From positions 1-30,657 of IMG/VR virus record IMGVR_UViG_3300021185_001776: a DNA stretch of 30,657 bases; one strand, given 5' to 3'. A program made the position numbers and the translations under genes. Positions 1 through 28,134 of this stretch are shown here, in pieces. Every line of letters starts with the position of its first letter. Positions within the stretch are counted from its first letter, which is position 1. The notes under the pieces are model-generated. The model did no database searches. It had not been told where the DNA came from and was given only the letters and a program-made list of their open reading frames with translations. The DNA comes from a virus.

Positions 1-14
1 ATTTGGAGACTTAG

Positions 15-416
15 ATGGCTGAAGGCAAAAAGTATGACGGAGGAAAGCCCCAGATGCACCTGCTTCCTCCCAAAGCTATAGAAGAAGTAGCTGATGTACT
101 AACATTTGGTGCAGTGAAGTATGGCGAGCACAACTGGAAGAAGCTAGACAATCTACAAAACAGATACACTAGTGCAGCTCTGAGACATATCTTTCAAAGT
201 ATGGAACAAGAGCTAGATGAAGAAACTGGATGTTACCACGAAGCACATGCAATATGCTGTTTATTATTCAAATTGGAGGCGAAATTAAATGAGGCGCGGA
301 GTAAAGAAGAAGGACTACGAGAATCTGAGCGCAGCCAACGTCAAGAAAGTAATATCTCTGTTGACCCCTGGAGAGGGTACTTCACAGTCGGCGATTACGA
401 AAAAAGCCGCGTGTGA
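15..416 (+). CDS. MazG-like dATP/dGTP diphosphohydrolase-type protein
   Basis: Residues 8-92 match the phage MazG-like family annotated as dATP/dGTP diphosphohydrolase (N-terminal domain). There is an early GGKPQMHLLPP motif, then LTFGAVKYGEHNW, an RYTSAALRH helix and an acidic EELDEETG/HEAHAICCLL segment. Conserved Glu, Asp and His residues of this all-alpha fold would bind Mg2+ and a nucleotide, converting a dNTP to dNMP plus pyrophosphate in the cytoplasm. Phages use such enzymes to adjust dNTP pools, which fits the RNR and polymerase genes downstream. A GGAG lies about 6 nt before the ATG. Oddity: the recognisable domain ends near residue 92, yet the frame runs another ~40 low-complexity residues and overlaps the next gene by 128 nt. 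The tail may be run-on after loss of a stop. The family call is from pattern memory. Confidence 0.62.
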   Translation: MAEGKKYDGGKPQMHLLPPKAIEEVADVLTFGAVKYGEHNWKKLDNLQNRYTSAALRHIFQSMEQELDEETGCYHEAHAICCLLFKLEAKLNEARSKEEGLRESERSQRQESNISVDPWRGYFTVGDYEKSRV

Positions 417-1011
417 TATGCTCAACATCTCGTATAATACTACGAGATTGGATAGAATCATTGAAGATTTCTTAGAGACACAAGCATATGTAGCTAAGCG
501 TAAATCAATGAATCGTGGTAAGCCGGCTACGGATATCGAGATTGGAGAGGCTGTAATGAGTTATCTTCAAGGTGCTACAATAGCAGATATTGCTAAAGGT
601 TTGTACCGATCTCCGTCTTTCGTCAAGAATTTGATCGAAAGGGTTGGAGTACCACAAAGACTTACTTCAAAAGACCAAGTAGGAGAAATAGACTATCTTC
701 CAGATGAGTGTGTCTCCGATTCTTTTGAGATAGGTGAGATAGTCTGGTCTGCTAGGTATCATCGTGCAGGTACAGTTATGAAGGAATTAAGCCCTACTTA
801 TGTTCAATCTAGGAAGGGTCTTGCTAATACTGACTATGAAGCAAAGTATGCGTGCAAATGCTACGATATACATATTTCAGAAGCTACAGATAGCGAAGAC
901 TCTATGTTTCCAGGCGTATCAGCAGGTGGCTTTTTTGCATCTTCTACAGCTTATGACCTTGGTAAACTCACTCACTTGCAAAAGTATGGAGTAAACCTAG
1001 AGACCTTGTAA
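289..1011 (+). CDS. Predicted helix-turn-helix DNA-binding protein
   Basis: This 240-residue protein is not a family I recognise by name. Its N-terminal 60 residues are basic (MRRGVKKKDY) with a possible winged-helix pattern. Residues about 85-125 read as a helix-turn-helix: a helix around IGEAVMSYLQG, a turn at ATIADIAKGL, then a recognition-like helix SPSFVKNLIERVG and a short basic exit. The C-terminal half (about 140-240) is mixed and contains clustered Cys (YACKCYD). The start is supported by GGAGG at 275-279 with about 9 nt to the ATG. A promoter begins right after the stop at 1011. A phage transcriptional regulator is the simplest reading, but DNA binding and target are inferred from the HTH pattern only. 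Confidence 0.5.
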   Translation: MRRGVKKKDYENLSAANVKKVISLLTPGEGTSQSAITKKAACDMLNISYNTTRLDRIIEDFLETQAYVAKRKSMNRGKPATDIEIGEAVMSYLQGATIADIAKGLYRSPSFVKNLIERVGVPQRLTSKDQVGEIDYLPDECVSDSFEIGEIVWSARYHRAGTVMKELSPTYVQSRKGLANTDYEAKYACKCYDIHISEATDSEDSMFPGVSAGGFFASSTAYDLGKLTHLQKYGVNLETL

Positions 1012-1021
1012 AAAATAATTC

Positions 1022-1051
1022 TTGACAGAAAGCTCAAAACTTTTATATAAT
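1022..1051 (+). promoter_or_regulatory. sigma70-type promoter P1
   Basis: TTGACA (1022-1027), an 18-nt spacer and TATAAT (1046-1051) form a near-perfect promoter. It follows an A-rich stretch that starts at the stop codon of the upstream gene (TAA at 1009-1011, then AAAAATAATTC). It drives the HTH gene starting at 1085 and shares the TTCTTGAC core with five other promoters in this window. Confidence 0.88.
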
Positions 1052-1084
1052 ATTATTTCAAATTTAGAGAAGGAGAAACAAATC

Positions 1085-1447
1085 GTGGCATGGGACGACG
1101 AGAAGAAAGCAGCAGTAATTGAAGCGTACGAAGGAGCAGACCCCACCCCTGAGAACTCTATGGAGATCGTCAAGGACTTGGCAGATGAATATGAAGAGTC
1201 ACCTAATGGTGTTCGGATGATTCTAACCAAAGCCGGTGTCTACGTTAAGAAGACTCCTGCAGCTTCAAGTAAATCTTCTGGAGGCACTAGTGCTGGGGGT
1301 ACGCGAGTATCTAAAGCAGCCGCTCAGGAGTCATTAATAGCCGCACTCACCGATGCGGGTCAAGAAATTGACAATGATATTGTTGATAAATTGACAGGTA
1401 AAGCTGCACAGTATTTTACTGCTGTAATTACCGCTGTTAATGCCTAA
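1085..1447 (+). CDS. Small HTH (Myb/SANT-like) DNA-binding protein with C-terminal helical domain
   Basis: This 120-residue protein starts at a GTG with AGGAG at 1071-1075. An upstream in-frame TTG at 1022 is the promoter -35 itself, so it cannot be the start for that transcript. Residues 1-55 (WDDEKKAAVIEAYEG ... PNGVRMILTKAGV) look like a short three-helix DNA-binding unit, with the last helix GVRMILTKAGV as the likely recognition helix. A Ser/Gly/Thr-rich linker (about 58-75) leads to a small C-terminal helical segment. The last helix closely resembles GVKTMLTRRGI at the end of the protein encoded at 3964-4689, so the two are likely paralogous. The gene has its own promoter and hairpin terminator, so it is a monocistronic unit. 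Likely a phage regulator or nucleoid-type protein; the role is inferred. Confidence 0.6.
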   Translation: MAWDDEKKAAVIEAYEGADPTPENSMEIVKDLADEYEESPNGVRMILTKAGVYVKKTPAASSKSSGGTSAGGTRVSKAAAQESLIAALTDAGQEIDNDIVDKLTGKAAQYFTAVITAVNA

Positions 1448-1470
1448 ATCCAAGCCCTAACAGGCCTGGT

Positions 1471-1510
1471 AAACGTCAGAGAGTTCCCCGCTCTCTGACG
1501 TTTCTTTGCA
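1471..1510 (+). terminator. Rho-independent terminator
   Basis: A perfect 13-bp inverted repeat (1471-1483 with 1491-1503, arms AAACGTCAGAGAG / CTCTCTGACGTTT) encloses a 7-nt loop and is followed by TTTCTTTG. It lies 23 nt after the stop of the HTH gene. The U-run is interrupted, so read-through is possible. Confidence 0.82.
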
Positions 1511-1577
1511 TCTACATCTTGAACCTGAGAAGTCAGCATTGCAAAAGATTTTGCTAACCTGCAACAAAGGAAGAAAG

Positions 1578-1844
1578 ATGAAAAAAGAAGCCCTAGCCGC
1601 TCTAGTAAGAGATTACGGAGACGCTGTTATAACATATAGAAGTGAGAATTCTAACAAGCTAAAGTATAATGTTTGTACTCTTGACTTTTCTACTCCTTAC
1701 ATTAAAGGTAAGAGTAGTCGAGCTAAAGAAGATAAAACTACATTACTATTATTTTGCTGGGACACAGATTCTTACAGGCTTTTAAAGCCTTCTACTGTTA
1801 CTAGCGTAGTTCCTTTAGGCTCTGTACTTAAAAACGGTAAGTAG
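1578..1844 (+). CDS. Hypothetical small beta-rich protein
   Basis: This 88-residue protein is of unknown family. The ATG at 1578 is chosen because AAGGAAG precedes it at 1567-1573; the longer in-frame TTG at 1506 sits in the terminator tail and has no ribosome site. After an N-terminal helix (MKKEALAALVRDYG) the sequence alternates in beta fashion: AVITYRS, KYNVCTLDF, KTTLLLFCWD, SYRLLKPSTV. That suggests a compact barrel or WYL/SH3-like fold, which I cannot confirm. It lies 2 nt upstream of the PC4-like gene, so the two are probably co-translated and may work together. No transmembrane or signal segment is visible. Confidence 0.55.
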   Translation: MKKEALAALVRDYGDAVITYRSENSNKLKYNVCTLDFSTPYIKGKSSRAKEDKTTLLLFCWDTDSYRLLKPSTVTSVVPLGSVLKNGK

Positions 1845-1846
1845 TA

Positions 1847-2146
1847 ATGGACTTATATCAAGCCCCCGAACTCTACGAAAGAACTATACACTACGATACT
1901 GATAAAGAAATTCAGATTCGTTTAACTGTAAGTACCTTTCGTGGAGTTGAATATCTTAGCCTAAGAAAGTATTACCTAGATTTTTTCGAAGAGTGGAAAC
2001 CTACTCCCGAAGGTATTTCTATGCCTATTGATTTCTCTAACTCAAAAGAGCTATTCATAGGTCTCACAGAAATATTGTCCCTAGCAGAATCTAAAGCTGT
2101 AATACAAGAGCACTTCAAAGAACTTATTGAGGATATCTACAAATAA
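1847..2146 (+). CDS. PC4-like ssDNA-binding / transcription cofactor protein
   Basis: At 99 residues the protein matches the PC4 (transcriptional coactivator p15) fold. Strands are visible at EIQIRLTVSTFRG and VEYLSLRKYYLDF, followed by EEWKPTPEGISMPIDF and a long helix from about 68. The core pattern is R-x-T-V-S-x-(F)-R-G-V-x-Y-L-S-(I/L)-R-x-Y-Y, then W-(K)-P-T-x-(E)-G-I-S-(M), as in bacterial and phage PC4 proteins. These dimerise through the helix and bind ssDNA on the beta face; PC4-like proteins are known in bacteria and phages (T5 is one I recall). The ATG follows the upstream stop by 2 nt. Position among regulators and before the ligase fits a role in transcription or replication; which one is not shown by the sequence. 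Confidence 0.72.
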   Translation: MDLYQAPELYERTIHYDTDKEIQIRLTVSTFRGVEYLSLRKYYLDFFEEWKPTPEGISMPIDFSNSKELFIGLTEILSLAESKAVIQEHFKELIEDIYK

Positions 2147-2149
2147 TTC

Positions 2150-2178
2150 TTGACTTCTTATCTGAATTTATATATAAT
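2150..2178 (+). promoter_or_regulatory. sigma70-type promoter P2
   Basis: TTGACT (2150-2155), a 17-nt spacer and TATAAT (2173-2178). The preceding AAATAATTC includes the stop codon (TAA, 2144-2146) of the PC4-like gene. It drives the first ligase gene at 2206, giving a short leader of about 20 nt that contains the ribosome site. Confidence 0.88.
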
Positions 2179-2205
2179 AGTTTTATAAATTGATGGAGAG
2201 AAGAA

Positions 2206-3150
2206 TTGAAACACTTTTTAGATTATGCAGCCAAGTGCTACTACGAAGGCAGTCCTGTTATATCAGATGGAGAGTTTGACGCTCTTGCTGATAGATATTC
2301 TTATGGTAAAGTTGGTCACACTGATAGCGGTGGAACTACTCACGCATATAAAATGTACTCTCTTCAGAAGTTCTTTGAGCTGGAAGGCGTCTGTAACAAC
2401 TTAGAAGATTATGTATCTACTCCTAAGTTAGACGGTGCAGCAGTGTCTATTCTATATGTAAATGGACGGCTAGCAATGGGTCTTACTCGTGGCGATGGTG
2501 TGAAAGGTCAAGTCATCACTGATAAGATAGCACATCTTGTTCCAAACGAAATTCTACTTACAGGCACTGTTCAGATTACTGGAGAGGTTGTATGTCCTTC
2601 ATCTGTAACAAATGCTCGTAACGTCGCAGCGGGGTCATTGAACCTTAAAAGCATAGAAGAGTTCAAAACTCGCCCCGTAGAGTTTGTAGCCTATGATATC
2701 CAGGGCGATATTGACTTCAGAACTTGGATACGAGCAATGCTTGCGTTAGAGTTTCAAGGCTTTCAGACTGTGTACAAATTTGACGCAAGTAACTATCCTA
2801 CAGATGGTATCGTGTACCGAATCAATGATTATGAGGTTTTCTCAGAGATGGGCTTCACCGCTCATCATCCTAGAGGAGCTTTTGCTCTCAAAGAGCAGAA
2901 GGAAGGAGTGGTAACAACACTTCTTGATGTTGTGTGGCAAGTAGGCAAAAGCGGGGTCGTAAGCCCTGTTGCAATCTTAGAGCCTATTCTAATAGGGGAT
3001 GCTACGATATCACGAGCTACCCTACACAACATCGAATACATACGAGAACTAGACCTTGAAATAGGTTGTAAAGTAGAAGTTATTAGATCAGGAGAGATCA
3101 TCCCACGAGTTGTAAAAAGAGTGGGATACCTCTCAAAAAATAATTCTTGA
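2206..3150 (+). CDS. ligA: NAD+-dependent DNA ligase, N-terminal part (adenylation + OB)
   Basis: This 314-residue protein holds a shortened Ia domain (YYEGSPVISDGEFDAL, residues 12-27, the NMN-binding motif), then the nucleotidyltransferase core with catalytic Lys74 in KLDG. It also has TRGDG, the NARNVAAGSLN motif, and the GIVYR motif. The OB fold follows at about 225-310 (VVWQVGKSGVVSPVA, SRATLHN, GEIIPRVV). The enzyme seals nicks using NAD+. The zinc-finger, HhH and BRCT parts of a normal ~670-residue LigA are missing here and are encoded by the next gene. The start is a TTG with GGAG at 2195-2198; no better in-frame start exists. The stop TGA (3148-3150) is part of the -35 box of the next promoter. 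Phage T5 is also annotated with a two-gene NAD ligase. Confidence 0.93.
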   Translation: MKHFLDYAAKCYYEGSPVISDGEFDALADRYSYGKVGHTDSGGTTHAYKMYSLQKFFELEGVCNNLEDYVSTPKLDGAAVSILYVNGRLAMGLTRGDGVKGQVITDKIAHLVPNEILLTGTVQITGEVVCPSSVTNARNVAAGSLNLKSIEEFKTRPVEFVAYDIQGDIDFRTWIRAMLALEFQGFQTVYKFDASNYPTDGIVYRINDYEVFSEMGFTAHHPRGAFALKEQKEGVVTTLLDVVWQVGKSGVVSPVAILEPILIGDATISRATLHNIEYIRELDLEIGCKVEVIRSGEIIPRVVKRVGYLSKNNS

Positions 3151-3175
3151 CTTTTACCTTACTTTTCCGTATAAT
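3147..3175 (+). promoter_or_regulatory. sigma70-type promoter P3, between the ligase halves
   Basis: TTGACT (3147-3152), a 17-nt spacer and TATAAT (3170-3175), preceded by AAAAAATAATTC as in P1 and P2. The TGA that ends the N-terminal ligase gene (3148-3150) lies inside the -35 hexamer. Transcription from here would give separate expression of the C-terminal ligase gene and the HTH gene at 3964. Confidence 0.88.
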
Positions 3176-3202
3176 ATCTTTTCAACTTAAGGAAGAAACA
3201 GA

Positions 3203-3964
3203 ATGACAGAAATTCAAGCTCCGACACATTGCCCTTCGTGCAACTCGTCACTTGAATGGTCGAACCATTTACTTTACTGTAGAAATTCTGACTGTGATTC
3301 TCAATCAGCTAAAAAGCTGGAGCATTTCGCTAAAACTCTAAAAATCAAGGGACTCGGTCCTGCCTCCATAAATAAACTGGGATTGACCAGTTTAGAGGAG
3401 ATCTATGCCCTGGATTTGGATACCCTTTGCGAGAAGCTCTCTTCTGATAAGTTAGGACAGAAACTGTTTGAAGAGATAGAAAAGTCTAAGCTAGTAGCAT
3501 TAGAAACTTTGTTGCCCGCATTTAGTATTCCTCTAATTGGCAAAACTGCCGCAGAAAAATTATCCAAAGTCTGCAATCGAATTGAAGACATAGACTATGG
3601 TATCTGCGCTAAAGCCGGTTTGGGAGAAAAAGCTGCAAAAAGTCTTATGCACTGGATTACGCATGATTTCTATTGTTTTTATGATGGTTACTTACCGTTT
3701 ACTTTTAAGTTCTCGTCAGTACCTCAGCCTTCAGCTTCCAAAGGCATAGTTTGCATCTCTGGAAAGCTGGTTAGTTATAAAACTAAAGCTGAAGCCGCTA
3801 CGGTTCTTGAAAGTTTAGGCTACACTATCAAGAGCAGTTTAACAAAAGAAGTAACGATTCTAGTCAATGAAAGTGGAATAGAATCACTCAAGACTATCAA
3901 AGCCAGAGAATCTGGCGTTGAAGTAATAACTAACCTTAAAACTTTTATTTTGGAGAATATATAA
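3203..3964 (+). CDS. NAD+-dependent DNA ligase, C-terminal part (Zn finger, HhH, BRCT)
   Basis: The 253-residue protein is the missing half of LigA. A four-Cys zinc finger (Cys10, Cys13, Cys26, Cys31) comes first. Helix-hairpin-helix repeats follow (LKIKGLGPASINKLG at about 47-61, PAFSIPLIGKTAAEKL at about 110-125, AGLGEKAAKSL). A C-terminal BRCT-like domain is at about 180-253 (GIVCISGKL, AATVLESLGYTIKSSLTKEVTILV). These parts grip DNA and would need to assemble with the adenylation half to form a ligase. AAGGAAG (3189-3195) precedes the ATG, and an in-frame TAA lies at 3188-3190. The gene is therefore independently initiated, and a single indel would not fuse the halves. It overlaps the next gene by 1 nt (TAATG). 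Confidence 0.9.
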   Translation: MTEIQAPTHCPSCNSSLEWSNHLLYCRNSDCDSQSAKKLEHFAKTLKIKGLGPASINKLGLTSLEEIYALDLDTLCEKLSSDKLGQKLFEEIEKSKLVALETLLPAFSIPLIGKTAAEKLSKVCNRIEDIDYGICAKAGLGEKAAKSLMHWITHDFYCFYDGYLPFTFKFSSVPQPSASKGIVCISGKLVSYKTKAEAATVLESLGYTIKSSLTKEVTILVNESGIESLKTIKARESGVEVITNLKTFILENI

Positions 3965-4689
3965 TGGCAGTCCCTAAGTGGAATGACGAACGTACATCAC
4001 AACTCACTGGCTATGTAGGCAATGAGTCCCCCGTATCACAAGCAACTGTAGCAGCCGCTGCAGAAGAGCTTGAAACATCTTCACGATCTATCTCTAGCAA
4101 ATTGCGAAAGATGGGTTTCGAAGTAGAACTTGCATCAGCAGCAGGAGGCAAAGCCTTCTCAGCAGAGCAAGAAGCGACTCTCGCTACCTTTGTATCTGAC
4201 AACAGCGGCACATATACTTATGCTGAAGTTGCTCAGTACTTTGAGCAAGGCGCGTTCTCTCCTAAGCAGATTCAAGGAAAGATTCTGTCTATGGAACTAA
4301 CTGCTCATATCAAAGCTGCTCCTAAGCCTGAGACTGTGAAAACATACTCAGACGCTGAAGAAGCTACTTTCATTGAGATGGTTAACTCTGGCGCATTTGT
4401 AGAGGCTATCGCCGAAGCAATGGGTCGCAGCGTAAGCTCAGTTCGCGGTAAGGCTCTTAGTCTTCTTCGTTCTGGCGCTATCGATGCTATCCCACGCCAG
4501 GAAAACACCAAGTCTGCGGCTAAAGAAGATCCTCTTGCAGCGATCGGAAACATTGCAGACCTTACAGTAGAGCAGATCGCAGAGACTGTCGGCAAAACTG
4601 TTCGTGGTGTTAAAACTATGCTAACTCGTCGCGGTATCACTGCCGCTGACTATGATGGCGCAGCCAAGAAAGAAAAAGCTGCACAGTAG
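3964..4689 (+). CDS. Multi-HTH DNA-binding protein with four tandem repeats
   Basis: This 241-residue, Ala-rich protein appears to be built from four imperfect three-helix units. They begin near residues 6 (KWNDERTSQL ... SSRSISSKLRKMGF), 63 (FSAEQEATLATFV ... SPKQIQGKILSM), 121 (YSDAEEATFIEMV ... SVSSVRGKALSLL) and about 190 (IADLTVEQIAETVGKTVRGVKTMLTRRGI). Each unit ends in a basic recognition-like helix. The last one resembles the protein at 1085-1447. Such arrays suggest binding to repeated sites or coating DNA, and might give regulatory control of the phage promoters; this is inference. Phage T5 encodes an early DNA-binding/transcription factor (D5) of similar size in the same neighbourhood, but homology cannot be shown here. 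GGAG at 3952-3955 supports the start. A hairpin terminator follows. Confidence 0.62.
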   Translation: MAVPKWNDERTSQLTGYVGNESPVSQATVAAAAEELETSSRSISSKLRKMGFEVELASAAGGKAFSAEQEATLATFVSDNSGTYTYAEVAQYFEQGAFSPKQIQGKILSMELTAHIKAAPKPETVKTYSDAEEATFIEMVNSGAFVEAIAEAMGRSVSSVRGKALSLLRSGAIDAIPRQENTKSAAKEDPLAAIGNIADLTVEQIAETVGKTVRGVKTMLTRRGITAADYDGAAKKEKAAQ

Positions 4690-4700
4690 TATAGTATTAC

Positions 4701-4734
4701 CAAGTGTTAGTTAATTCTGACTAACACTTGTTTT
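4701..4734 (+). terminator. Rho-independent terminator or attenuator before the helicase gene
   Basis: An 11-bp perfect inverted repeat (4701-4711 with 4720-4730, CAAGTGTTAGT / ACTAACACTTG) with an 8-nt loop is followed by TTTT. It lies 12 nt after the HTH gene's stop. No promoter is visible between it and the helicase start at 4758, so helicase transcription probably depends on read-through or antitermination. Confidence 0.72.
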
Positions 4735-4757
4735 GATAGGTTCGGGAGACACCTTAA

Positions 4758-6107
4758 TTGAATATCGCTAGTGCTTTAATCAAGCAAGTCATTGCTTTGC
4801 AAGACTTCGAGACTTGGAGCCGGTTGCGTAAACACTATCTACCCACAGAGTATGATACTCTGTACAAGGTTATAGATTCTCATTGCGATAAGTATCATCA
4901 AGTGCCTACATTTGATGATCTTCGCTATGAGATTCGTGATGGTGCTACACGCGACAGGCTTTATGCCATAGAAGGCATAGATGTAGATGCTGAGCCTCTG
5001 CATCTTCTCGAATATCTGAAGAATGAGTACGCGCAAAGAGAAATTTTGGGGTCTCTGGAAACCTATATAGATCAGTCTGTGGCTTTTGAAGACGCAGACG
5101 AATCTCTTGCTCACCTTCACCAGATCGTTCTTGATGTAGAAAACAAAGTTGAACTTCAAGACCCAGAGGAGAATATGCAATATATTCAACTCTTCGACCC
5201 TGATGAAGAGGTAAGCAAGTACCTGCCCCTCGGTCTCAATTCAGATTATGATGATAAGATTAAATTCTCTCCTAGAGACCTTATTCTTGTCGGAGGTCGA
5301 CGTGGGTCAGGTAAATCAATAACTTGTGCCAATCTTGCTAACAATGTATTTAACTCAGGCAAGTCTGCAATCTATTTCACTATTGAGATGGACAGCAGGC
5401 AGACTCTTCAACGTTGTGCTGCAATCGCAACGGGGATACCATTCTCTAGATTAAAGTTGAAAAACCTTAATGTTACTGAGTGGGAAAAAGTTGCTGGATG
5501 GTGGGCTAACCGCTTTACTGGCGGGGCTGACTGCTTGAAAGATTACAAACAGCACAGAAACTTCGAAAAGTTCCATCGTACACTAACATCCACTTGCGAG
5601 CTTCTCCCGACTCAGCAGCTAGATGTTGTGTATGACCCATCTTTGACAATATCCAAAATCAAAGCGGAGCTTGATAAGAAAGTTAAGTCGCTAAATGTAG
5701 GTGTAGTCATTGTTGACTATATCAATCAAGTAAAGCGTTCTGCCCTGCCCTCACGGGGCGGTCAGTATGACTGGACTGAGCAGATAGAAGTTAGTAAGGC
5801 GCTAAAAGCAATGGCACAGGAATTTGAGGTTCCAATATTTTCTCCTTACCAGACTGACGCTAGTGGTGAAGCTAGATTCGCAAAGGGTATCTTGGACGCC
5901 GCAGATGCTGCGTACGCTCTCGAGACCTGGAGTCCGGAAGATAATTGTATCACTTTCAACTGCGTTAAGATGCGTAATAACTCTATGGATTCTTTCACTT
6001 CTACAATGGAGTGGGACTCATTAAAGATTGGCCCAGAGACTTCCATGTCTCCAAAAGATGCAGAGGAATCTGGGCTTAAATCTGGTGAGAGTATTGACGA
6101 TCTCTAA
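4758..6107 (+). CDS. dnaB: Replicative DNA helicase, DnaB/RecA-fold
   Basis: The 449-residue protein unwinds DNA at the fork as a hexamer. The N-terminal ~150 residues are helical, as in phage DnaB-type helicases. The RecA-fold motor follows: Walker A GGRRGSGKS (residues 179-187), an acidic motif YFTIEMDSRQTLQR, Walker B VGVVIVDYINQV, and a later SPYQTDASGEARF segment equivalent to the glutamine sensor region. The end (SPKDAEESGLKSGESIDDL) is acidic and probably flexible. The start is a TTG with GGGAG at 4744-4748. It is followed by a promoter and, 0.5 kb later, by the primase, the usual helicase-primase-polymerase set. Phage T5 has a helicase in the same position. It is slightly shorter than bacterial DnaB (about 470 aa). 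Confidence 0.9.
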   Translation: MNIASALIKQVIALQDFETWSRLRKHYLPTEYDTLYKVIDSHCDKYHQVPTFDDLRYEIRDGATRDRLYAIEGIDVDAEPLHLLEYLKNEYAQREILGSLETYIDQSVAFEDADESLAHLHQIVLDVENKVELQDPEENMQYIQLFDPDEEVSKYLPLGLNSDYDDKIKFSPRDLILVGGRRGSGKSITCANLANNVFNSGKSAIYFTIEMDSRQTLQRCAAIATGIPFSRLKLKNLNVTEWEKVAGWWANRFTGGADCLKDYKQHRNFEKFHRTLTSTCELLPTQQLDVVYDPSLTISKIKAELDKKVKSLNVGVVIVDYINQVKRSALPSRGGQYDWTEQIEVSKALKAMAQEFEVPIFSPYQTDASGEARFAKGILDAADAAYALETWSPEDNCITFNCVKMRNNSMDSFTSTMEWDSLKIGPETSMSPKDAEESGLKSGESIDDL

Positions 6108-6115
6108 AATACTTC

Positions 6116-6144
6116 TTGACACTCCTGTTCTTTTTTAGTATAAT
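6116..6144 (+). promoter_or_regulatory. sigma70-type promoter P4
   Basis: TTGACA (6116-6121), a 17-nt spacer and TATAAT (6139-6144). The preceding sequence AAAATACTTC follows the helicase stop directly. It would drive the small basic protein gene at 6178, and probably the primase and polymerase downstream, since no terminator is visible before them. Confidence 0.88.
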
Positions 6145-6177
6145 ATACATATTAAATAATTACAGGAGTTCTTTTCT

Positions 6178-6468
6178 ATGATGGTTTATACAGACAGCAA
6201 GTATCGACCAGTCACTCGTAACCGTAAAAAACTGCCCTCCAAGCCTAAGCGCACTAAGCCTAAGTTTGTACCCTACACACCTACATCACAGGTGTTTCGC
6301 AGGGAAACTCCAGAGTACCCCTCTGTAGTATCTAAGTCAGCAGTACCTACCAAAACAGACGACTCTTATAGAGCAGAAGTATCTAAGAAATACACACTAG
6401 CACCTGCATATAATAAAGGTGCATACCAAGTAATCAGTATCGACAATGTGGAGCATATAGGAAAGTAA
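6178..6468 (+). CDS. Hypothetical basic, proline-rich protein
   Basis: No family recognised for this 96-residue protein. The N-terminal third is strongly basic (NRKKLPSKPKRTKPKF) and Pro-rich, and the remainder carries repeated Tyr/Ser/Thr and Pro, with a short hydrophobic AYQVISIDNV near the end. It looks largely disordered with nucleic-acid-binding potential. The start has AGGAG at 6164-6168 with 9 nt spacing; two consecutive ATGs (6178, 6181) are possible starts. It is the first gene behind promoter P4 and overlaps the following 52-residue gene by 1 nt. Placement between helicase and primase suggests a replication or host-takeover role, but nothing in the sequence proves it. Confidence 0.6.
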   Translation: MMVYTDSKYRPVTRNRKKLPSKPKRTKPKFVPYTPTSQVFRRETPEYPSVVSKSAVPTKTDDSYRAEVSKKYTLAPAYNKGAYQVISIDNVEHIGK

Positions 6469-6626
6469 TGAAACCATCCCCAATAATGTCAGAAGATGTT
6501 TATAGATTTCTAAAAAATCTAGTAGACCCAGGCAAGTTTGGACACGCAGTAACTGCGGAAGTAAGAGACGAAGCAAGAGTACTGCTAGGTTTAGGAAGAG
6601 CAGAAATGGAGCAGTACAGAGCGTGA
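6468..6626 (+). CDS. Small hypothetical protein, 52 aa
   Basis: This short gene starts ATG-AAA-CCA and ends in TGA at 6624-6626. It overlaps the upstream stop by 1 nt (TAATG) and the primase GTG by 4 nt (GTGA). The tight couplings at both ends fill the whole space between two supported genes, so a real gene is likely. The product is predicted helical (SEDVYRFLKNLVD, TAEVRDEARVLLGLGRAEME) with a Gly/His turn. No family is recognised. An upstream ribosome site is weak (GGAAAG), so translation may be coupled to the previous gene. Confidence 0.58.
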   Translation: MKPSPIMSEDVYRFLKNLVDPGKFGHAVTAEVRDEARVLLGLGRAEMEQYRA

Positions 6627-7450
6627 CAGTAGAAGAATTATTAACTAAGAAAGATATTGACTTTCAGTTGAAAGGCAAAGACCTTATAGTAAAATGCTTG
6701 AATCCAGAGCATGATGATTCTAACCCGAGTATGCGTATTGATCAAGTAACTGGTATATTCAATTGCTTTTCGTGCGCTTACAAAGGTAATGTATTCTTTC
6801 TTTACGGAGAGAAGGTAAATCAGCTACAGTTACGAAGAGATTTGCTAAAGCGCAAGATACTACAAAAACGATCAGAGAGTATTGGCTTAGCCATGCCTAA
6901 AGGTGCAGAACCTTACAGCGGGGATTGGCGGGGTCTCAAACCAGAGACTTATACTAAGTTCGAGGCATTTCAGCATCACGCTCCCGACTTTATAGGCCGC
7001 ATAGTATTTCCAGTACGAGACACTAGCGGAAATATTGTAGCATTTAACGGACGACACACTAGCAATGGCATACCTAAATACAAGATTAATCCAATTGGAG
7101 CAAAGTTACCTTTCTATCCTAAAGTAAATGCTAGGGATGGTAAAATAATACTTGTAGAAGGTATCTATGATATGTTAAACTTACATGATAAAGGATTAAC
7201 AAACGCAGTATGTTCTTTCGGAACAAAGAATGTAAGTGAGGAGAAGCTGCAAATACTCAAAATGCAGGGAGTTGAAGGAGTAGACATCTTCTTTGACGGA
7301 GACGAAGCAGGACAAAAAGCAGCAGCAACAATAATTGATATGTGTGAGAAAATTGGTCTCACTACCAGAAACATCCATCTCAATGGAACTGACCCTGGTG
7401 AACTATCAGAAACTAAAGTAATTACACTAGCGAGAAAATTATATGCCTAA
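6623..7450 (+). CDS. DNA primase, CHC2 zinc finger + Toprim
   Basis: The 275-residue protein makes RNA primers for the phage fork. A zinc-binding CHC2 domain is visible: Cys25, His30, Cys48, Cys51 (KCLNPEH ... FNCFSC). A DnaG-like catalytic part follows, with RIVFPVRD and AFNGRH (about 126-145) and a Toprim domain with Glu179 in ILVEGIYD and the Asp225-Gly-Asp227 motif in FFDGDEAG. It is much shorter than bacterial DnaG and lacks the helicase-binding domain, as in many phages. The start is a GTG overlapping the preceding stop, with GGAG at 6608-6611. It overlaps the polymerase gene by 8 nt, consistent with coupled expression. Confidence 0.9.
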   Translation: MTVEELLTKKDIDFQLKGKDLIVKCLNPEHDDSNPSMRIDQVTGIFNCFSCAYKGNVFFLYGEKVNQLQLRRDLLKRKILQKRSESIGLAMPKGAEPYSGDWRGLKPETYTKFEAFQHHAPDFIGRIVFPVRDTSGNIVAFNGRHTSNGIPKYKINPIGAKLPFYPKVNARDGKIILVEGIYDMLNLHDKGLTNAVCSFGTKNVSEEKLQILKMQGVEGVDIFFDGDEAGQKAAATIIDMCEKIGLTTRNIHLNGTDPGELSETKVITLARKLYA

Positions 7451-9716
7451 AGTCGCATTAATAGAGACTAAACCAAGCAAGACTAACTTCCGACAAGAAT
7501 TTGATGGAGCTTTCGAGTTCGATCAGTTTCAGCTATGTTCGAATCCTACCATCAAGAAAGTTCTTAAGAAAGACTGCGATATCGAAATCGACAGCAGCCT
7601 CTATGACTGGATTATTCTAGTGGGCAGTGACGCTCTCAAATTCTTCACAAAAATTAATTCTGTTACAGAGTATTCAGGTAAGGTAGTAGAGCAAAAGTTC
7701 CTACCTGTAATCAATCCTGCTATGCTCGCATTTAAACCAGAAGCTCGCAAGACTTGGGAAGATTCCAAAGATAGTATCATTGGCTTTATCAGTGGTACTA
7801 AGCAAGAAACGTTTGTAGATGAAAGCATTGCTTTCGGTATTCAAGATACTGCAACTGCAAACGCATTTATTCAAGATGCAATTGACTATGACTATACTCA
7901 CGTTGCTCTTGACTCAGAGACTACTGGCTTATACCCCCGTGATGGGCATATGCTAGGTCTATCACTGTCTTACGACGGTGAGAAAGGTGCATATATTGAT
8001 ACTGAGTGTTTCGATGAAACTACTGAAGCACTATTACAGGAACTCTTTGATAAGAAGACTGTAATTTTTCACAATGCTAAGTTTGACTTGGCATTCTTTC
8101 AGTATCACTTCAATTTCAACTTTCCACAAATTGAAGACACTATGCTTCTACACTACTTGATCGACGAGAACCCAGGTACTCATGGACTCAAACAACTGGC
8201 TATGAAGTACACCCCTTACGGAGACTACGAGCAGCCTATGTATGAGTGGATTGGTGAGTATCGTAAGAATCATGGCATTCTCAAGGAGCAGTTCTCATGG
8301 GACTTAATTCCTTTTCATACTATGAAAGTATACGCTGCGATGGACTCTCTAGTTACATTTCTAGTATACGAAAAGTTCAAGAAGATCAAGCAAAACGCTA
8401 AACTGTTATGGGTATATGATAACATTCTTATTCCTGGTACTCGCTTTCTTCTAAATGTACAAGATAACGGTGTTCCTTTCGACAGGACTCGACTTCTTGT
8501 TGCACAAGAATTAATGCAGTCGGATATTGATGCAGCCGTCAAAACTCTCTACACAAATCCTGCTATTGCTCGATTTGAAGAAGTTCAAGGCAAGCAATTC
8601 AACCCTAACAGTACAGTGCAACTTCGTAGCTTGTTGTTTGACTTCCTAGGTCTACAGCCTACTGGCAAGAAAACCGGCACAGGTGCAAACTCTACAGATG
8701 CGGAAGTTCTAGGTGAGCTTGCTGAGAAATCGGATGTTCCAGCTTTGATTCTTGATATTCGTCAGAAGTCAAAAATCAAAAATACTTACCTAGATAAAAT
8801 TATTCCACAGCTAGATCGTGATAGTCACCTTCGTACAGGTTTTAATCTGCACGGAACTACTTCTGGTCGTCTAAGCTCTAGTGGTAAACTCAATATGCAG
8901 CAGTTGCCGCGAGACAATCCTATTGTTAAGGGCTGTATCAAAGCACGCCCAGGGCATCAGATTGTCGCAATGGACTTAACAACTGCCGAAGTATATGTAG
9001 CTGCTGTACTTGCAGAGGACAAAGCTTTAATGGATGTATTCCGTTCCGGAGGTAACTTTCACAGTACGATTGCTAAGACAGTGTTTAAGCTACCTTGCGA
9101 TGTTGAAGATGTTGCCACTCTACACTCTGTAGAGCGTCAAGCTGCTAAAGCTGTAACCTTTGGTATCATGTATGGTGCTGGCGCTAGAAAAATTAGTCAG
9201 GAAGTTACCAAGAGTTCTGGTACTTTTTTCAGCCCTCAAGAAGCTCAAGAAGTTATTGATGACTACTTCAAGAGCTTTCACAAGCTCAAGAGCTGGATTA
9301 AGCACAATGAGAGCTATATAGAGCAGAATGGCTTTATATATAGTTTCTTTGGTAGAAAGCGCAGGCTGCCAAATGTGGCATCAACTGATAAAGGTATTAA
9401 GAGCCATACAATACGGTCAGGCCTAAACTTTCTAGTTCAGTCTGCGGCTTCTGACATTAACTTGTTGGGTGCCATAGATATGGAAGCCTATATTAATGCG
9501 AAAGGTATGAAGTCTAAAATCTTTGCACTAGTACATGACTCCATTCTTGCAGAAGTTCCCGATGAAGAAGTCGATATGTATCGTAGTAAACTACAGCAAT
9601 TCATTCAAATGGATCGTGGCATTTCCATTCCAGGAGCTGCAGTAGGTTGTGACTTCGATATTGGGGGAGACTATTCAATGGGTAAGTTCGAGACTAAGTA
9701 CGGTCAGTACCTTTGA
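7443..9716 (+). CDS. polA: DNA polymerase, family A with 3'-5' exonuclease
   Basis: At 757 residues this is the replicative polymerase. The proofreading domain has ExoI Asp157/Glu159 (ALDSETTG), ExoII NAKFD (211-215) and ExoIII Tyr297/Asp301. The polymerase domain has motif A with Asp511 and Glu516 (MDLTTAEVY), motif B Arg565/Lys569/Phe573/Tyr577 (RQAAKAVTFGIMYG), and motif C His698-Asp699 (LVHDS). There is no 5'-3' exonuclease domain; a separate gene at 16405 supplies it. Phe573 corresponds to E. coli Phe762, the residue used in viral ecology to classify phage polymerases. Motif A has DLTTAEVY in place of the usual DYSQIELR, a variant I associate with T5-type polymerases. All catalytic residues are present. 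Confidence 0.96.
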   Translation: MPKVALIETKPSKTNFRQEFDGAFEFDQFQLCSNPTIKKVLKKDCDIEIDSSLYDWIILVGSDALKFFTKINSVTEYSGKVVEQKFLPVINPAMLAFKPEARKTWEDSKDSIIGFISGTKQETFVDESIAFGIQDTATANAFIQDAIDYDYTHVALDSETTGLYPRDGHMLGLSLSYDGEKGAYIDTECFDETTEALLQELFDKKTVIFHNAKFDLAFFQYHFNFNFPQIEDTMLLHYLIDENPGTHGLKQLAMKYTPYGDYEQPMYEWIGEYRKNHGILKEQFSWDLIPFHTMKVYAAMDSLVTFLVYEKFKKIKQNAKLLWVYDNILIPGTRFLLNVQDNGVPFDRTRLLVAQELMQSDIDAAVKTLYTNPAIARFEEVQGKQFNPNSTVQLRSLLFDFLGLQPTGKKTGTGANSTDAEVLGELAEKSDVPALILDIRQKSKIKNTYLDKIIPQLDRDSHLRTGFNLHGTTSGRLSSSGKLNMQQLPRDNPIVKGCIKARPGHQIVAMDLTTAEVYVAAVLAEDKALMDVFRSGGNFHSTIAKTVFKLPCDVEDVATLHSVERQAAKAVTFGIMYGAGARKISQEVTKSSGTFFSPQEAQEVIDDYFKSFHKLKSWIKHNESYIEQNGFIYSFFGRKRRLPNVASTDKGIKSHTIRSGLNFLVQSAASDINLLGAIDMEAYINAKGMKSKIFALVHDSILAEVPDEEVDMYRSKLQQFIQMDRGISIPGAAVGCDFDIGGDYSMGKFETKYGQYL

Positions 9717-10204
9717 TAATAACCTATAAAACTATTAATAAGATTAAGTTTCCTGTGTTCCAGTTACCAAACTCTAATTGGAGTACACAGGACGGCCTTA
9801 TGTTTATAGATCGAGAAATTGTAGACGATAAGAATATGCGTGGAGATACTCTCGGATTGAGAAGACTTCAAAGCCCTTTCACTATGATGAAACTTAATCG
9901 TTCCGTTAATAATATTATAGGTATAATAAAACAACCAAGAAATACTTTTATTGATTCTACTGGTACTCCATTTATATACCAGAAGACTTTATTTGTTACC
10001 TTAAAATATTTAAAAATAACGAAGATAGTACGAAGAGACATTGCAACCTTAGTATATGTACGAAGTTGCAACTCTCCCTTCACCGTACCAAGACCTCCTG
10101 CAGATGATATGCGTTGGGCAGGGGTATTGCATCTTCACGGATTCCCTTGGGAATTATATGAGTATTCTGAGTCATACCAGAAAGATACTCGTAGGAAAAT
10201 ATAA
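9713..10204 (+). CDS. Hypothetical protein between polymerase and PhoH
   Basis: This 163-residue protein is not recognised. It starts at a TTG that overlaps the polymerase stop by 4 nt (TTGA) and ends directly before the PhoH ATG, so translation is probably coupled. The sequence is rich in beta-type stretches and basic residues, with NRSVNNIIGIIKQP, a hydrophobic TLFVTLKYLKITKIV, and a Trp/His/Pro-rich end (DMRWAGVLHLHGFPWEL). No catalytic motif or membrane segment stands out. Location inside the replication operon suggests a replication accessory role, but this is inference. Expression from a TTG start without a strong ribosome site would be weak. Confidence 0.6.
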   Translation: MIITYKTINKIKFPVFQLPNSNWSTQDGLMFIDREIVDDKNMRGDTLGLRRLQSPFTMMKLNRSVNNIIGIIKQPRNTFIDSTGTPFIYQKTLFVTLKYLKITKIVRRDIATLVYVRSCNSPFTVPRPPADDMRWAGVLHLHGFPWELYEYSESYQKDTRRKI

Positions 10205-10864
10205 ATGGCAAAAAGAAATAGACTATTAGCATCTGGAAACTTACAGCTACAAGAAATTGAGCCTCTTACTAAGAATCAACTCAAAGCCTTTGAGAGCGAT
10301 AAGCATTTAGTGCTACATGGCGTGGCTGGCACAGGAAAAACATTCATATCATGCTACTTAGCATTTGATGATATATTAAAGAATGAATACAATAGCCTAG
10401 TTATAATCCGTAGTGCCGTTCCTACTAGAGACATTGGTTTCTTGCCTGGTAACGAAAAGGAAAAATCTTCCGTCTATGAAGAACCTTATAAGGACATTTG
10501 TATAGAGTTATTTCAACGAGGTGATGCTTACGAGATTTGTAAAACAAAAGGTTTAGTCCATTTTATGACAACCTCTTTTATTAGAGGAGTGACATTACGA
10601 GATGCAGTTGTACTCATTGATGAGTGTCAAAATATGTCTTTTCATGAGCTAGACTCAATTATAACTCGCATGGGTGAAGGTTGCCGAGTTATATTTTGTG
10701 GAGACTTCAGACAAGCAGACCTTAGTGACAATGGGTTAACAAAGTTTATTCGAGTATTGAAAGCAATGGATGAGTTTACGCTAGTAGACTTTGAAGCTGC
10801 CGACATAGTACGAAGTGATTTTGTTAAAAAGTATATCATCGCAAAAACAGATTTAGGCTTATGA
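10205..10864 (+). CDS. phoH: PhoH-like P-loop ATPase
   Basis: The 219-residue protein is a compact PhoH family ATPase. Evidence: an LTKNQLKAFE entry motif, Walker A GVAGTGKT (39-46), the PhoH-typical IIRSAVPTRDIGFLPG segment (68-82), Walker B VVLIDECQN with Asp139/Glu140, and the GDFRQADL motif near 176. PhoH genes are frequent in marine phage genomes and act in nucleic acid metabolism or stress; the exact role in phages is unsettled. Here it sits inside the replication cluster, between the polymerase and a D10-like helicase, and its stop overlaps the next ATG (ATGA). It is shorter than host PhoH proteins but retains all core ATPase motifs. Confidence 0.9.
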   Translation: MAKRNRLLASGNLQLQEIEPLTKNQLKAFESDKHLVLHGVAGTGKTFISCYLAFDDILKNEYNSLVIIRSAVPTRDIGFLPGNEKEKSSVYEEPYKDICIELFQRGDAYEICKTKGLVHFMTTSFIRGVTLRDAVVLIDECQNMSFHELDSIITRMGEGCRVIFCGDFRQADLSDNGLTKFIRVLKAMDEFTLVDFEAADIVRSDFVKKYIIAKTDLGL

Positions 10865-12144
10865 GTAAAGCAGTTTTAAGTAATAGGATATTTATGGATT
10901 GTACCCCTGAACTACAGGAGTCAATAGATAAAGAATTAACCTATAAAATACCTTCATGGAATGCTGACGAACCTCCTCAGGTTATCAAGAATATGGGCAT
11001 CATTAAGAAAGGGTTAATTACCATTCCTATTGGTAGAACTGACTTAATACCAGAAGACTATGAGATAGTTGATAAGCGGTTGAGTATTGAAGCAGACTTC
11101 CCTGAGTTCAGATTTGAGCTTAGGGAAAGTCAGCAACAAGTATACGATGAGATTGAGGATAACGCTATAATTAACGCTTGGGTTAGTTGGGGTAAAACCT
11201 TCACGGGGTTGGCCATAGCTGGAAAACTAGGGCTAAAGACCTTAATCGTAACTCATACAGTTGCACTACGAAATCAGTGGGCGAAGGAAGTTAAGAAAGT
11301 ATACGGCTTTGAGCCTGCTATAATTGGTAGTGGTAGATTTGAGCTAGATAAACCTATAGTGATAGGCAATACACAAACTTTATACCGAAACATGGACAAA
11401 CTTCGGAAAGAGTTTGGAACAATTATACTGGATGAAATGCATCATGTAAGCAGCCCAACTTTTTCCAGAATTTTGGACATAAGTCATGCAAGGTATAAGA
11501 TAGGCTTGTCAGGAACAATTGAAAGAAAAGACGGAAAGCACGTAGTTTTTCGTGATTATTTCAGCTCTAAGGTATTTAAGCCTCCAAAAGAAAACTTTAT
11601 GACTCCTACTATACACATAGTAAAGTCAGACATACGTTTTATGGACGGTGGAACTCCCTGGGCAAATAGAGTTACCGCTCTAGCAAACAATGAAGAATAT
11701 CGCCATTCTGTTGCCATATTAGCGGCAGCATATGCAGCCAGAGGCCATAAAGTTCTGGTGGTAAGCGATAGAGTAGGCTTTTTAAGAGGTTGCGCCGAAC
11801 TGACCGGAGAAAAAGCAGTTTGTGTTACGGGCGAGGTCGAGCATGAGGAAAGAGAAAAGCTTGTGGACGGAATTTTGTATGGGGATAAGAATGTTTTGTT
11901 CGGAACTCAATCAATTTTCTCCGAAGGTATCTCAGTAAACAATCTAAGTTGTCTAATACTAGGTACTCCCATAAATAATGAGCCTCTATTGACACAATTA
12001 ATAGGACGAGTGATCAGACTACAGGAGGGCAAGAGAGATCCAGTAGTGATAGATATTCATCTGAAAGGTAATACTGCAAATAGACAGGCTTCCAATAGAG
12101 TAGGCTATTATATGAAGCAGGGCTACAAGATTACTCAGATATAA
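10861..12144 (+). CDS. SF2 helicase, UvsW / T5 D10-like
   Basis: The 427-residue protein is a superfamily 2 helicase with the order expected of UvsW-type branch-migration helicases. A Q-like LRESQQ motif is at 87-92. Walker A is atypical, WVSWGKT (107-113), with Ser-Trp where Gly-x-Gly is usual. A DEMH box (191-194), an SGT motif III (217-219), a conserved VVSDR around 304 and a final QLIGRVIR motif follow. T4 UvsW remodels stalled forks and R-loops, and T5 D10 branch-migrates Holliday junctions, so this enzyme likely acts in recombination-dependent replication with the SbcCD-like and resolvase genes downstream. It overlaps PhoH by 4 nt and ends just upstream of promoter P5. Confidence 0.88.
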   Translation: MSKAVLSNRIFMDCTPELQESIDKELTYKIPSWNADEPPQVIKNMGIIKKGLITIPIGRTDLIPEDYEIVDKRLSIEADFPEFRFELRESQQQVYDEIEDNAIINAWVSWGKTFTGLAIAGKLGLKTLIVTHTVALRNQWAKEVKKVYGFEPAIIGSGRFELDKPIVIGNTQTLYRNMDKLRKEFGTIILDEMHHVSSPTFSRILDISHARYKIGLSGTIERKDGKHVVFRDYFSSKVFKPPKENFMTPTIHIVKSDIRFMDGGTPWANRVTALANNEEYRHSVAILAAAYAARGHKVLVVSDRVGFLRGCAELTGEKAVCVTGEVEHEEREKLVDGILYGDKNVLFGTQSIFSEGISVNNLSCLILGTPINNEPLLTQLIGRVIRLQEGKRDPVVIDIHLKGNTANRQASNRVGYYMKQGYKITQI

Positions 12145-12154
12145 AAAATAGTTC

Positions 12155-12183
12155 TTGACAAATAGGTAAAAGTTTAGTATAAT
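12155..12183 (+). promoter_or_regulatory. sigma70-type promoter P5 touching a start codon
   Basis: TTGACA (12155-12160), a 17-nt spacer and TATAAT (12178-12183), preceded by AAAAAATAGTTC after the helicase stop at 12144. The last base of TATAAT is immediately followed by the ATG at 12184. A transcript from this promoter would start several nt downstream, so it would miss that ATG and serve the SSB and later genes. Confidence 0.86.
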
Positions 12184-12597
12184 ATGTTCTTATATAATTG
12201 GAAAAAGATATACGATGCGGCAAACGGCTCTACTACAGAGTGTTTCCGCATATTTGAGATGCTTGTAAAAAGCAAAGTTCCAAATAATCGTTACGATAAG
12301 ATATACAAGTATCGTAATACAGACTTTAATGGCAGGAGTTTTTTAGTTCATGCGGATGTTCTATTGTATAACTCATTTCATTACAGCCCGCGAGAAATCG
12401 CGATATACCTTTCGATAGCTGGACTACGCAAATTACCGCACTGGATAGCTACGAAAGACACAACCCTAGACTTGCTTCATGTACCGGATGAAGATGTAGT
12501 CCTCGAAGCACTATACGAAAGCAGACTATTTCATATCGAAGATCGCAAAGTGCATTTTAGATATGAGGAAGCCCCAACTAAAGAGGAATTAAACTAA
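12184..12597 (+). CDS. Hypothetical protein upstream of SSB gene
   Basis: The 137-residue protein is unrecognised. It begins MFLYNWKKIYDAANG and appears mainly helical, with RIFEMLVKSKVP, a beta-like RSFLVHADVLLY, SPREIAIYLSIAGL (about 65-78, a possible HTH) and a charged end. The start is uncertain: the ATG at 12184 directly follows the promoter -10 box and no ribosome site is visible ahead of it. The next in-frame Met is residue 26 (about 12259), also without a good site. If the ATG is used, the mRNA must come from read-through of the upstream transcript. It overlaps the SSB gene by 1 nt (TAATG). Confidence 0.6.
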   Translation: MFLYNWKKIYDAANGSTTECFRIFEMLVKSKVPNNRYDKIYKYRNTDFNGRSFLVHADVLLYNSFHYSPREIAIYLSIAGLRKLPHWIATKDTTLDLLHVPDEDVVLEALYESRLFHIEDRKVHFRYEEAPTKEELN

Positions 12598-13229
12598 TGG
12601 CAATATCATTCAATCAACAGAAAGGCGCAGCACAAAAATCATCAATCGACACTTTTTCATTCCGAGACGGAGACAACAAGATGCGTCTTGTTGGCGACGT
12701 ACTAGCTCGCTATGTCTACTGGATAGAAGGTGAAAACGGCAAGAACATTCCACTAGAGTGTTTGTCTTTTGATCGTAACGCCGAGCGTTTCACAAACATC
12801 GAAAAAGATTGGGTTCGCGAATATTATCCCGATCTCAAGTGTGGCTGGAGCTACGCTATGCAGTGTATCGATCCTGCAGACAATAAAGTAAAAGTAGTAA
12901 ACCTAAAGAAGAAGTTGTGGGAGCAAATTATTACTGCCGCAGAAGACTTAGGTGACCCTACAGATGTAACTACTGGCTGGGACGTTTGTTTCAAGCGAGT
13001 AAAGACTGGGCCTCTTCCTTACAATGTAGAGTACCAATTACAAGTACTAAAGTGTAAGCCTCGCCCACTAGAAGCAGCTGAAGCTGCTGCTATTGAAGGT
13101 CTCAAGTCTATGGACGAAGTAATGACTCGCCCAACTCCAGATGCTCAGAAAGAGCTTCTCGACCGCCTACGTGGCCCATCACAAGAGCAGATGGATGAGA
13201 GCTTGGAAGCTGAGTTCAATATTGGATGA
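12597..13229 (+). CDS. Single-stranded DNA-binding protein
   Basis: This 210-residue protein is the likely phage SSB. It has an OB-like core: DNKMRLVGDVLARYVYW, then LECLSFDR, YPDLKCGWSYAMQCID, KVKVVNLKKKLWEQI, GWDVCFKRVKTG, and VEYQLQVLKCKP. An acidic C-terminal tail (DESLEAEFNIG) resembles the partner-binding tails of phage SSBs such as T7 gp2.5 and T4 gp32. Unlike gp32, no zinc-binding Cys/His quartet is evident. SSB coats unwound template and coordinates polymerase and recombination enzymes. It overlaps the preceding gene by 1 nt and the SbcD-like gene by 4 nt (ATGA), with AGAGGA ahead of the ATG. Position matches D11 of T5, itself described as DNA-binding as far as I recall. Fold call is moderately sure. 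Confidence 0.72.
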   Translation: MAISFNQQKGAAQKSSIDTFSFRDGDNKMRLVGDVLARYVYWIEGENGKNIPLECLSFDRNAERFTNIEKDWVREYYPDLKCGWSYAMQCIDPADNKVKVVNLKKKLWEQIITAAEDLGDPTDVTTGWDVCFKRVKTGPLPYNVEYQLQVLKCKPRPLEAAEAAAIEGLKSMDEVMTRPTPDAQKELLDRLRGPSQEQMDESLEAEFNIG

Positions 13230-14185
13230 TCTTATTCACCGCAGATTGGCATATTAAACTAGGTCAAAAGAATGTGCCTGTACCTTGGGCATTGAATAGA
13301 TACCATCTATTCTTTAAGCAAATTAAAGAAATAGAAAAAGAATGTTCAATGCACATTATAGGCGGAGACTTATTTGATCGTTTGCCGACTATGGAAGAAT
13401 TAGAACTGTACTTCACGTTTATTCGTGGAGTACAGATTCCAACGATAATCTATGACGGTAATCACGAAGCTACAAAGAAGACTAAAACTTTCTTTAGCCA
13501 ACTAAAACAAGTCACTAGAGATATCAATCCTCTAGTGACAATAATCGATATTTCTTATATAGATAAAGATTTAGGCTTCGGAATACTTCCTTACACTGAG
13601 TTACATAAGAAAGGTATTATAGAGCATTTTGATGTTAAGAAACCTTTATTTACTCATGTCAGGGGCGAGATACCTCCTCATGTAAAACCTGAGATTGACT
13701 TAGACGACTTGTCTGAGTTCCCAGTAGTATTTGCAGGAGACCTACATTCTCACTCTAATACGCAAAGAAATATTGTATATCCAGGTAGTCCTATGACGAC
13801 TTCATTTCATAGAAGTAAAGTCTCAACGGGGTATCTACTCATTGACGAAAATTCTTGGAATTGGATGTGGGAAGAGTTCAAACTACCTCAGCTAATTCGT
13901 AAAACAGTTACCTCTACAGAAGAAATGGTTGAAACAGACTACGACCATACAATCTATGAGATAGAAGGTGATATTCAGGAATTGGCTGCAATTAAAAACT
14001 CTGACCTACTCGACAAAAAAGTAGTAAAGAGAAATACCGAAGCTACTCTTATTATGGAAAAGGATATGTCCATTGAAGAAGAGTTGTCCGAGTATCTAAA
14101 GTACATATTAGGTATAAACGAAGAAAAAATTACTGGAATACTAGGCACATTTAATGATTACTCTCAAACATCTCAAGTGGAATAA
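13226..14185 (+). CDS. sbcD: SbcD/gp47-like recombination nuclease subunit
   Basis: The 319-residue protein is a calcineurin-type metallophosphoesterase. The motifs are in order: DWH (Asp7, His9), GGDLFD with Asp48, GNHE (Asn79, His80), His144 in THVRG, and GDLHSH (His174, His176). All expected metal ligands are present. Such proteins pair with an SbcC-like ATPase to process double-strand ends and hairpins in recombination and replication; T4 gp47 and T5 D12 are the phage counterparts. It overlaps SSB by 4 nt and the SbcC-like gene by 32 nt, so the two subunits are translationally coupled. Length is close to T4 gp47 (about 340 aa). Confidence 0.93.
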   Translation: MILFTADWHIKLGQKNVPVPWALNRYHLFFKQIKEIEKECSMHIIGGDLFDRLPTMEELELYFTFIRGVQIPTIIYDGNHEATKKTKTFFSQLKQVTRDINPLVTIIDISYIDKDLGFGILPYTELHKKGIIEHFDVKKPLFTHVRGEIPPHVKPEIDLDDLSEFPVVFAGDLHSHSNTQRNIVYPGSPMTTSFHRSKVSTGYLLIDENSWNWMWEEFKLPQLIRKTVTSTEEMVETDYDHTIYEIEGDIQELAAIKNSDLLDKKVVKRNTEATLIMEKDMSIEEELSEYLKYILGINEEKITGILGTFNDYSQTSQVE

Positions 14186-15956: not shown

Positions 15957-15957
15957 T

Positions 15958-19013: not shown

Positions 19014-19014
19014 A

Positions 19015-19977: not shown

Positions 19978-20008
19978 ATAAAAAGCCCTCTAATTGAGGG
20001 CTTTTTAT
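19978..20008. terminator. Bidirectional Rho-independent terminator
   Basis: A perfect 13-bp inverted repeat (19978-19990 with 19996-20008, ATAAAAAGCCCTC / GAGGGCTTTTTAT) has a 5-nt loop. A GC core (GCCCTC/GAGGGC) is followed by T-runs on both strands. It lies between nrdB (+) and the tail chaperone gene (-), so it can stop both convergent transcripts. Confidence 0.93.
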
Positions 20009-22258: not shown

Positions 22259-22261
22259 AAA

Positions 22262-24345: not shown

Positions 24346-24373
24346 TAGTTACTCCTTAATTTTATATGGTATA

Positions 24374-24402
24374 ATTTTACATGGGTTTACATCTTTAGTC
24401 AA
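24374..24402 (-). promoter_or_regulatory. sigma70-type promoter P6 (minus strand)
   Basis: Read on the - strand: TTGACT (24402-24397), a 17-nt spacer and TAAAAT (24379-24374). The upstream sequence is AAAATTTC, giving the same TTCTTGAC core as P1-P5. It lies in the 82-nt gap between the 643-residue protein gene and the start at 24345, the only sizeable gap in the adhesin locus. The -10 box is weaker than in P1-P5. Confidence 0.72.
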
Positions 24403-24427
24403 GAAATTTTTTTTACAAAGTATCATA

Positions 24428-26359: not shown

Positions 26360-26368
26360 GCGTTACTC

Positions 26369-28091: not shown

Positions 28092-28108
28092 TTGGCTCTC
28101 CTAATATT

Positions 28109-28120: not shown

Positions 28121-28134
28121 TGGAGTTTAACTAT

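Follow-up and report, generated by a model that had tools for sequence, protein, structure and literature searches.

The locus described here very probably encodes a heterodimeric NAD-dependent DNA ligase of the T5 type and, between its two genes, the promoter of a ligB-D5 transcription unit, in an uncultured marine T5-like phage, as judged by comparison of sequences, gene order and predicted folds. The stretch analysed, hereafter the window, is a 30,657-base virus record whose early block lies on the plus strand and has the gene order of T5 (D2-like, D3-like, PC4/p15-like, ligA, ligB, D5, DnaB-type helicase, primase and DNA polymerase). The order PC4-ligA-ligB-D5-helicase-primase-polymerase agrees with that of T5, BF23 and their relatives, and the syntenic block D2/D3/PC4/ligA/ligB/D5/D6/primase/polymerase, a mark of T5-like (Demerecviridae-type) phages, is present in the window. 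When 20 kb of the window were compared with phage records by megablast, no near nucleotide match was found, and in the phylogeny the marine relatives stood outside the cultured genera, the window being a 30.7-kb fragment. The early block ends at position 19977; convergent with it, the right third of the window (20013-30494) lies on the minus strand and, judged by eye, codes for repeat-rich, tail- or fibre-like proteins.

We propose that LigA (adenylation and OB domains) and LigB (zinc finger, HhH and BRCT) of the window phage would assemble into one nick-sealing enzyme. The junction promoter would drive ligB and the abutting D5 regulator gene up to the terminator, whereas ligA is preceded by a predicted promoter of its own, likewise of the early type; since no terminator was detected behind ligA, transcription probably reads through from there into ligB-D5. 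The coordinates of the features are given in Table 1.

Table 1 Features of the ligA-ligB-D5 region of the window
Feature	Position	Strand	Remarks
PC4/p15-like transcription coactivator gene	1847..2146	+	just 5' of ligA, as in T5-like phages
ligA promoter (predicted)	2150..2178	+	TTGACT-17-TATAAT; AATAATTC motif ahead, as at the ligB promoter
ligA, NAD-dependent DNA ligase subunit A	2206..3150	+	TTG start, TGA stop, 314 aa; partial domain Ia, adenylation domain with KLDG motif, OB fold
Last codons of ligA, AAA AAT AAT TCT TGA (KNNS*)	3136..3150	+	also supply the ligB promoter with its A+T-rich stretch and -35 box
ligB-D5 promoter (predicted)	3147..3175	+	TTGACT 3147-3152, 17-nt spacer, TATAAT 3170-3175; predicted start ~3182
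ligB, NAD-dependent DNA ligase subunit B	3203..3964	+	ATG start, 253 aa; four-Cys zinc finger, HhH, BRCT
D5-like transcription regulator gene	3964..4689	+	ATG overlaps the ligB stop by one base
Terminator-like hairpin	4701..4730	+	13-bp stem, T run; closes the ligB-D5 unit

The preliminary description of this DNA had assigned the adenylation/OB half and the zinc-finger/HhH/BRCT half of the ligase to separate genes, and indeed the two open reading frames lie in different frames and are separated by 52 nt. LigA contains the Pfam domains PF01653 (adenylation) and PF03120 (OB), and the residues K74, D76 and G77 of its catalytic KxDG motif were invariant across 26 aligned sequences. LigB was identified as the zinc finger/HhH/BRCT part by alignment to E. 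coli LigA, Thermus LigA and chain B of PDB entry 9hu3. Its predicted fold agreed with this, matching the C-terminal half of LigA and BRCT domains, and the zinc-finger cysteines C10, C13, C26 and C31 were invariant. A Pfam search with LigB at 1e-3 gave no family, whereas PHROGs, PDB sequences and the fold gave matches. The best solved match of both proteins was PDB 9hu3/9i5i (E=6e-60 and VIA Z 26.5-27.5 for LigA; E=7e-38 and Z 17.6 for LigB, which aligned over its full length to 9hu3 chain B). In PHROGs each subunit has a half-length family of its own, phrog_3359 for LigA and phrog_3498 for LigB; the window proteins match these nearly end to end, with no difference noted. Identities to the subunits of three cultured T5-like phages (BF23, PR1 and My1) were 41-47% for LigA and 37-41% for LigB, and the single-chain predicted models were of moderate confidence (pTM 0.65 and 0.58, respectively). 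The two halves represent a genuine T5-type split, as had been suggested, and T5 is split at the same point.

The site between the two genes belongs to a small set. On the plus strand of positions 1-20000 of the window, five sigma70-like sites matched at least 11 of 12 hexamer positions (at 1022, 2150, 3147, 6116 and 12155), all of them standing before a gene, and none was present on the minus strand of this region; 60 dinucleotide shuffles of the same sequence gave a mean of 0.3 and a maximum of 2 such sites. The five have a common form: an A-rich run, ATAnTTC, TTGACW, 17-18 nt and TATAAT. The A-rich run with ATAnTTC directly 5' of TTGACW constitutes a lineage-specific extended -35 form that marine relatives also possess. 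Since the five sites are of one form and each precedes a gene, we regard the site at 3147 as one of a set of like early promoters and not as a special ligase element. The window promoter has the hexamers, the spacer and the A+T-rich AAAAAATAATTC expected of T5-type early promoters, and the promoters of ligA and ligB are both of early-type architecture and both contain the AATAATTCTTGACTT stretch. In T5, genes of every class are reported to be transcribed by the sigma70 RNA polymerase of the host, and the early promoters to have ATATT in common downstream of the -10 box (PMC7472727); the window promoters are similar but not identical there, the downstream ATCTT merely resembling this motif. The promoter at 3147-3175 is predicted to be active in the window phage.

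To compare junctions, loci from viral contigs and cultured phages were scanned with profiles of both ligase halves. Every T5-like locus with both ends present consisted of two open reading frames, and ligA and ligB were separate in all 46 distinct T5-like junctions, which came from independent contigs and isolates. The joined state was visible to the same scan, which recognized it in five phages that do not belong to the T5 group (L057, L058, L059, L061 and L062); among the scanned loci, neither a T5-like relative with a joined ligase nor one with split genes but without a promoter was found. In each of the 46 junctions a sigma70-like site ended its -10 box 25-34 nt before the ligB start (33 sites scored 11-12 of 12, 12 scored 9-10 and one scored 8), and none of 1037 coding segments of equal length, used as a control, reached 11/12. 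The spacing between the ligA stop and the -35 box, in contrast, ranged from -4 to +3841 nt. Small genes occupy the ligA-ligB gap in PG07, Kamaji, KEY, Ceto and KIT04, and in one relative (L035) several genes separate ligA from the ligB promoter. This latter interval (L035:4931-8833) measures 3.9 kb and contains several open reading frames, by eye including a carbamoyltransferase-like and a 2OG-oxygenase-like one. The near-constant distance to ligB and the widely varying distance to the ligA stop show that the promoter goes with ligB and does not, contrary to what had been assumed, mark the domain border: up to 3.9 kb of genes may lie between it and ligA. Two promoters are present in the ligA-ligB gap of some cultured phages (T5, L052:6337-6535; also L001, L053 and L049), with a very short open reading frame behind a ribosome-site-like stretch between them (MARVSKVS in T5, MADKPDGNE in PR1).

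The genes downstream of the promoter are equally constant. In all 45 junctions in which the region was present, D5 directly followed ligB (gap -14 to +32 nt), no site of at least 11/12 occurred between ligB and D5 (0/45), and a terminator-like hairpin lay 3' of D5 in 35 of the 45. A promoter, ligB, D5 and a terminator therefore form the conserved unit, and the junction promoter is best read as that of the ligB-D5 unit, with ligA belonging to the preceding one. This start would supply D5 and LigB independently of upstream read-through. The 46 junctions, including the window, were also scanned for a terminator in the interval from ligA to the ligB promoter, and none was detected. One that the hairpin scan had missed is annotated immediately behind ligA in the PR1 record; the scan is thus non-exhaustive, and read-through from ligA may vary across the T5-like family.

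The preliminary description had placed the ligA stop within the -35 box of a strong sigma70-like promoter, and this is correct to the base: TGA 3148-3150 falls within TTGACT 3147-3152. The KNNS* ending was found only in the window and its close relatives (L004, L005, L007, L009, L043 and duplicates), and in the LigA tree its five complete carriers group together as a single clade (support 100/96). In the sister L010, ligA ends with TAA 11 nt before the -35 box of the same promoter, and in other relatives with a close gap the stop lies 3-24 nt before this box. A stop lying inside this box is a derived trait of the small clade of the window. In the simplest reading, loss of an earlier stop extended the frame 3' through the A+T-rich segment at the upstream side of the ligB promoter, as far as the TGA that TTGAC contains. 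The resulting tail of LigA was modelled with low confidence and has no conserved counterpart, so it probably carries no functional weight. As a case in which the end of a gene and a promoter use the same bases, the arrangement is neat but minor, and it leaves the general picture unchanged.

Several other explanations of the split and of its promoter were considered. It had been suggested that the two halves might be made at different levels or times, and a promoter that sets LigB apart from LigA in this way could control ligase activity. A promoter-like site of its own precedes ligB in 46 of 46 junctions, and ligA of several cultured phages lacks a strong promoter (a site of at least 11/12 was present upstream of ligA in 28 of 42 relatives tested). 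However, the two promoters of the window are alike in the stretch named above and in their early-type architecture, and the unit driven is ligB together with D5, which makes D5 the simplest target of extra transcription. We consider control of ligase activity unlikely. Differences in promoter sequence that would point to different timing were sought, and this part of the suggestion was unsupported: the promoters of ligA and ligB are of one form, which gives no hint that the two genes are expressed at different times. Different levels are possible, because ligB-D5 would have its own initiation on top of read-through.

The preliminary description had further proposed that a promoter cassette inserted at the OB/zinc-finger border of a once single-gene ligase caused the split. 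Consistent with this, the split and a promoter just before ligB occur together at all T5-like junctions, and the tree separates LigA of this family from the single-gene ligases, which makes one ancient split plausible. Yet no joined T5-like relative was found among the scanned loci that would represent the prior state, the promoter is tied to ligB and D5 and lies several genes from the ligA end in some relatives, and near-identical promoters precede other early genes that are not split. The branch uniting all split LigA proteins, apart from the joined ones, is only moderately supported (84/78), and the outgroup branches are long. The LigB tree places a joined phage ligase, itself very long-branched, among the split proteins, but this position is not trustworthy. 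A single origin of the split nevertheless appears likely. An insertion as its cause is very unlikely; the split itself is family-wide.

In a further reading, which as a whole is highly improbable, LigB would be tied transcriptionally to D5 rather than to LigA throughout the T5-like phages, and the split might have been kept because LigB, a DNA-binding zinc finger/HhH/BRCT module, is made in step with D5 and works with it beyond the ligase, for example at nicks or replication forks for late transcription. Finally, an assembly or sequencing artefact of one contiguous gene, for which it could be said that the halves are adjacent, in order and jointly cover a whole LigA, can practically be dismissed and the frameshift reading was rejected, as the preliminary description had already argued from the ribosome site (AAGGAA) of ligB and the TAA 3188-3190 in frame upstream of its ATG, given the separate genes in 46/46 junctions, with no contiguous T5-like relative among the loci scanned, and a PR1 enzyme solved as two chains.

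To summarize, a T5-type ligase pair followed by a separately promoted ligB-D5 unit remains our preferred reading, and it agrees well with known systems. The split NAD-dependent ligase of T5 had already been referred to in 2006 (PMC1684257). The T5 record (GenBank AY543070) lists ligA, the promoters PK28b and PK28a, and then ligB, and promoters in this gap are also annotated in the records of BF23, AKFV33 and PR1. Thus a promoter at the junction, which had been thought perhaps undescribed, is described at the annotation level, and in T5 itself. T5 ligA (T5.116) and ligB (T5.117) have the same split point, direction and order (ligA, promoter, ligB, D5, D6 helicase) as the window genes, but the genes of T5 are 199 nt apart, with two promoters in between and TTGCTA as the -35 box near ligB, whereas the window has a 52-nt gap with one promoter and TTGACT and, unlike T5, the ligA stop inside the promoter. 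Going by the record annotation, we take PK28a and PK28b to have been functionally mapped; the T5 promoter set reportedly stems from Gentz and Bujard in 1985.

Both subunits of the PR1 ligase are homologous to those of the window over the full length (41% identity each), and a promoter is annotated in the PR1 gap; the terminator annotated directly after PR1 ligA has no detected equivalent in the window. The entries 9hu3 and 9i5i are titled "PR1 phage heterodimeric DNA ligase in complex with 21-mer nicked DNA", and chain B of 9hu3, in the part that was matched, has the sequence of LigB from Providencia phage PR1. According to the titles, the DNA in the solved complexes was either "containing phage nick sequence" or random in sequence, and from this it seems that a connection with the site-specific nicks in the virion DNA of T5-like phages was being tested by the depositors; a literature search found no paper on the PR1 ligase structure. 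Single-gene LigA (of E. coli, Rhizobium phage RHph_TM2_3B and others) has the same domains in the same order as the window pair, but as one polypeptide, and the window halves are only 28-37% identical to E. coli LigA. The window is a new marine case of the known two-gene T5 ligase, and its junction promoter occurs throughout the family, T5 included, where it had been annotated before. It extends this arrangement to a divergent marine lineage, and the comparison gives a cleaner reading of the promoter, which belongs to a promoter-ligB-D5-terminator unit and not to the ligase domain border.
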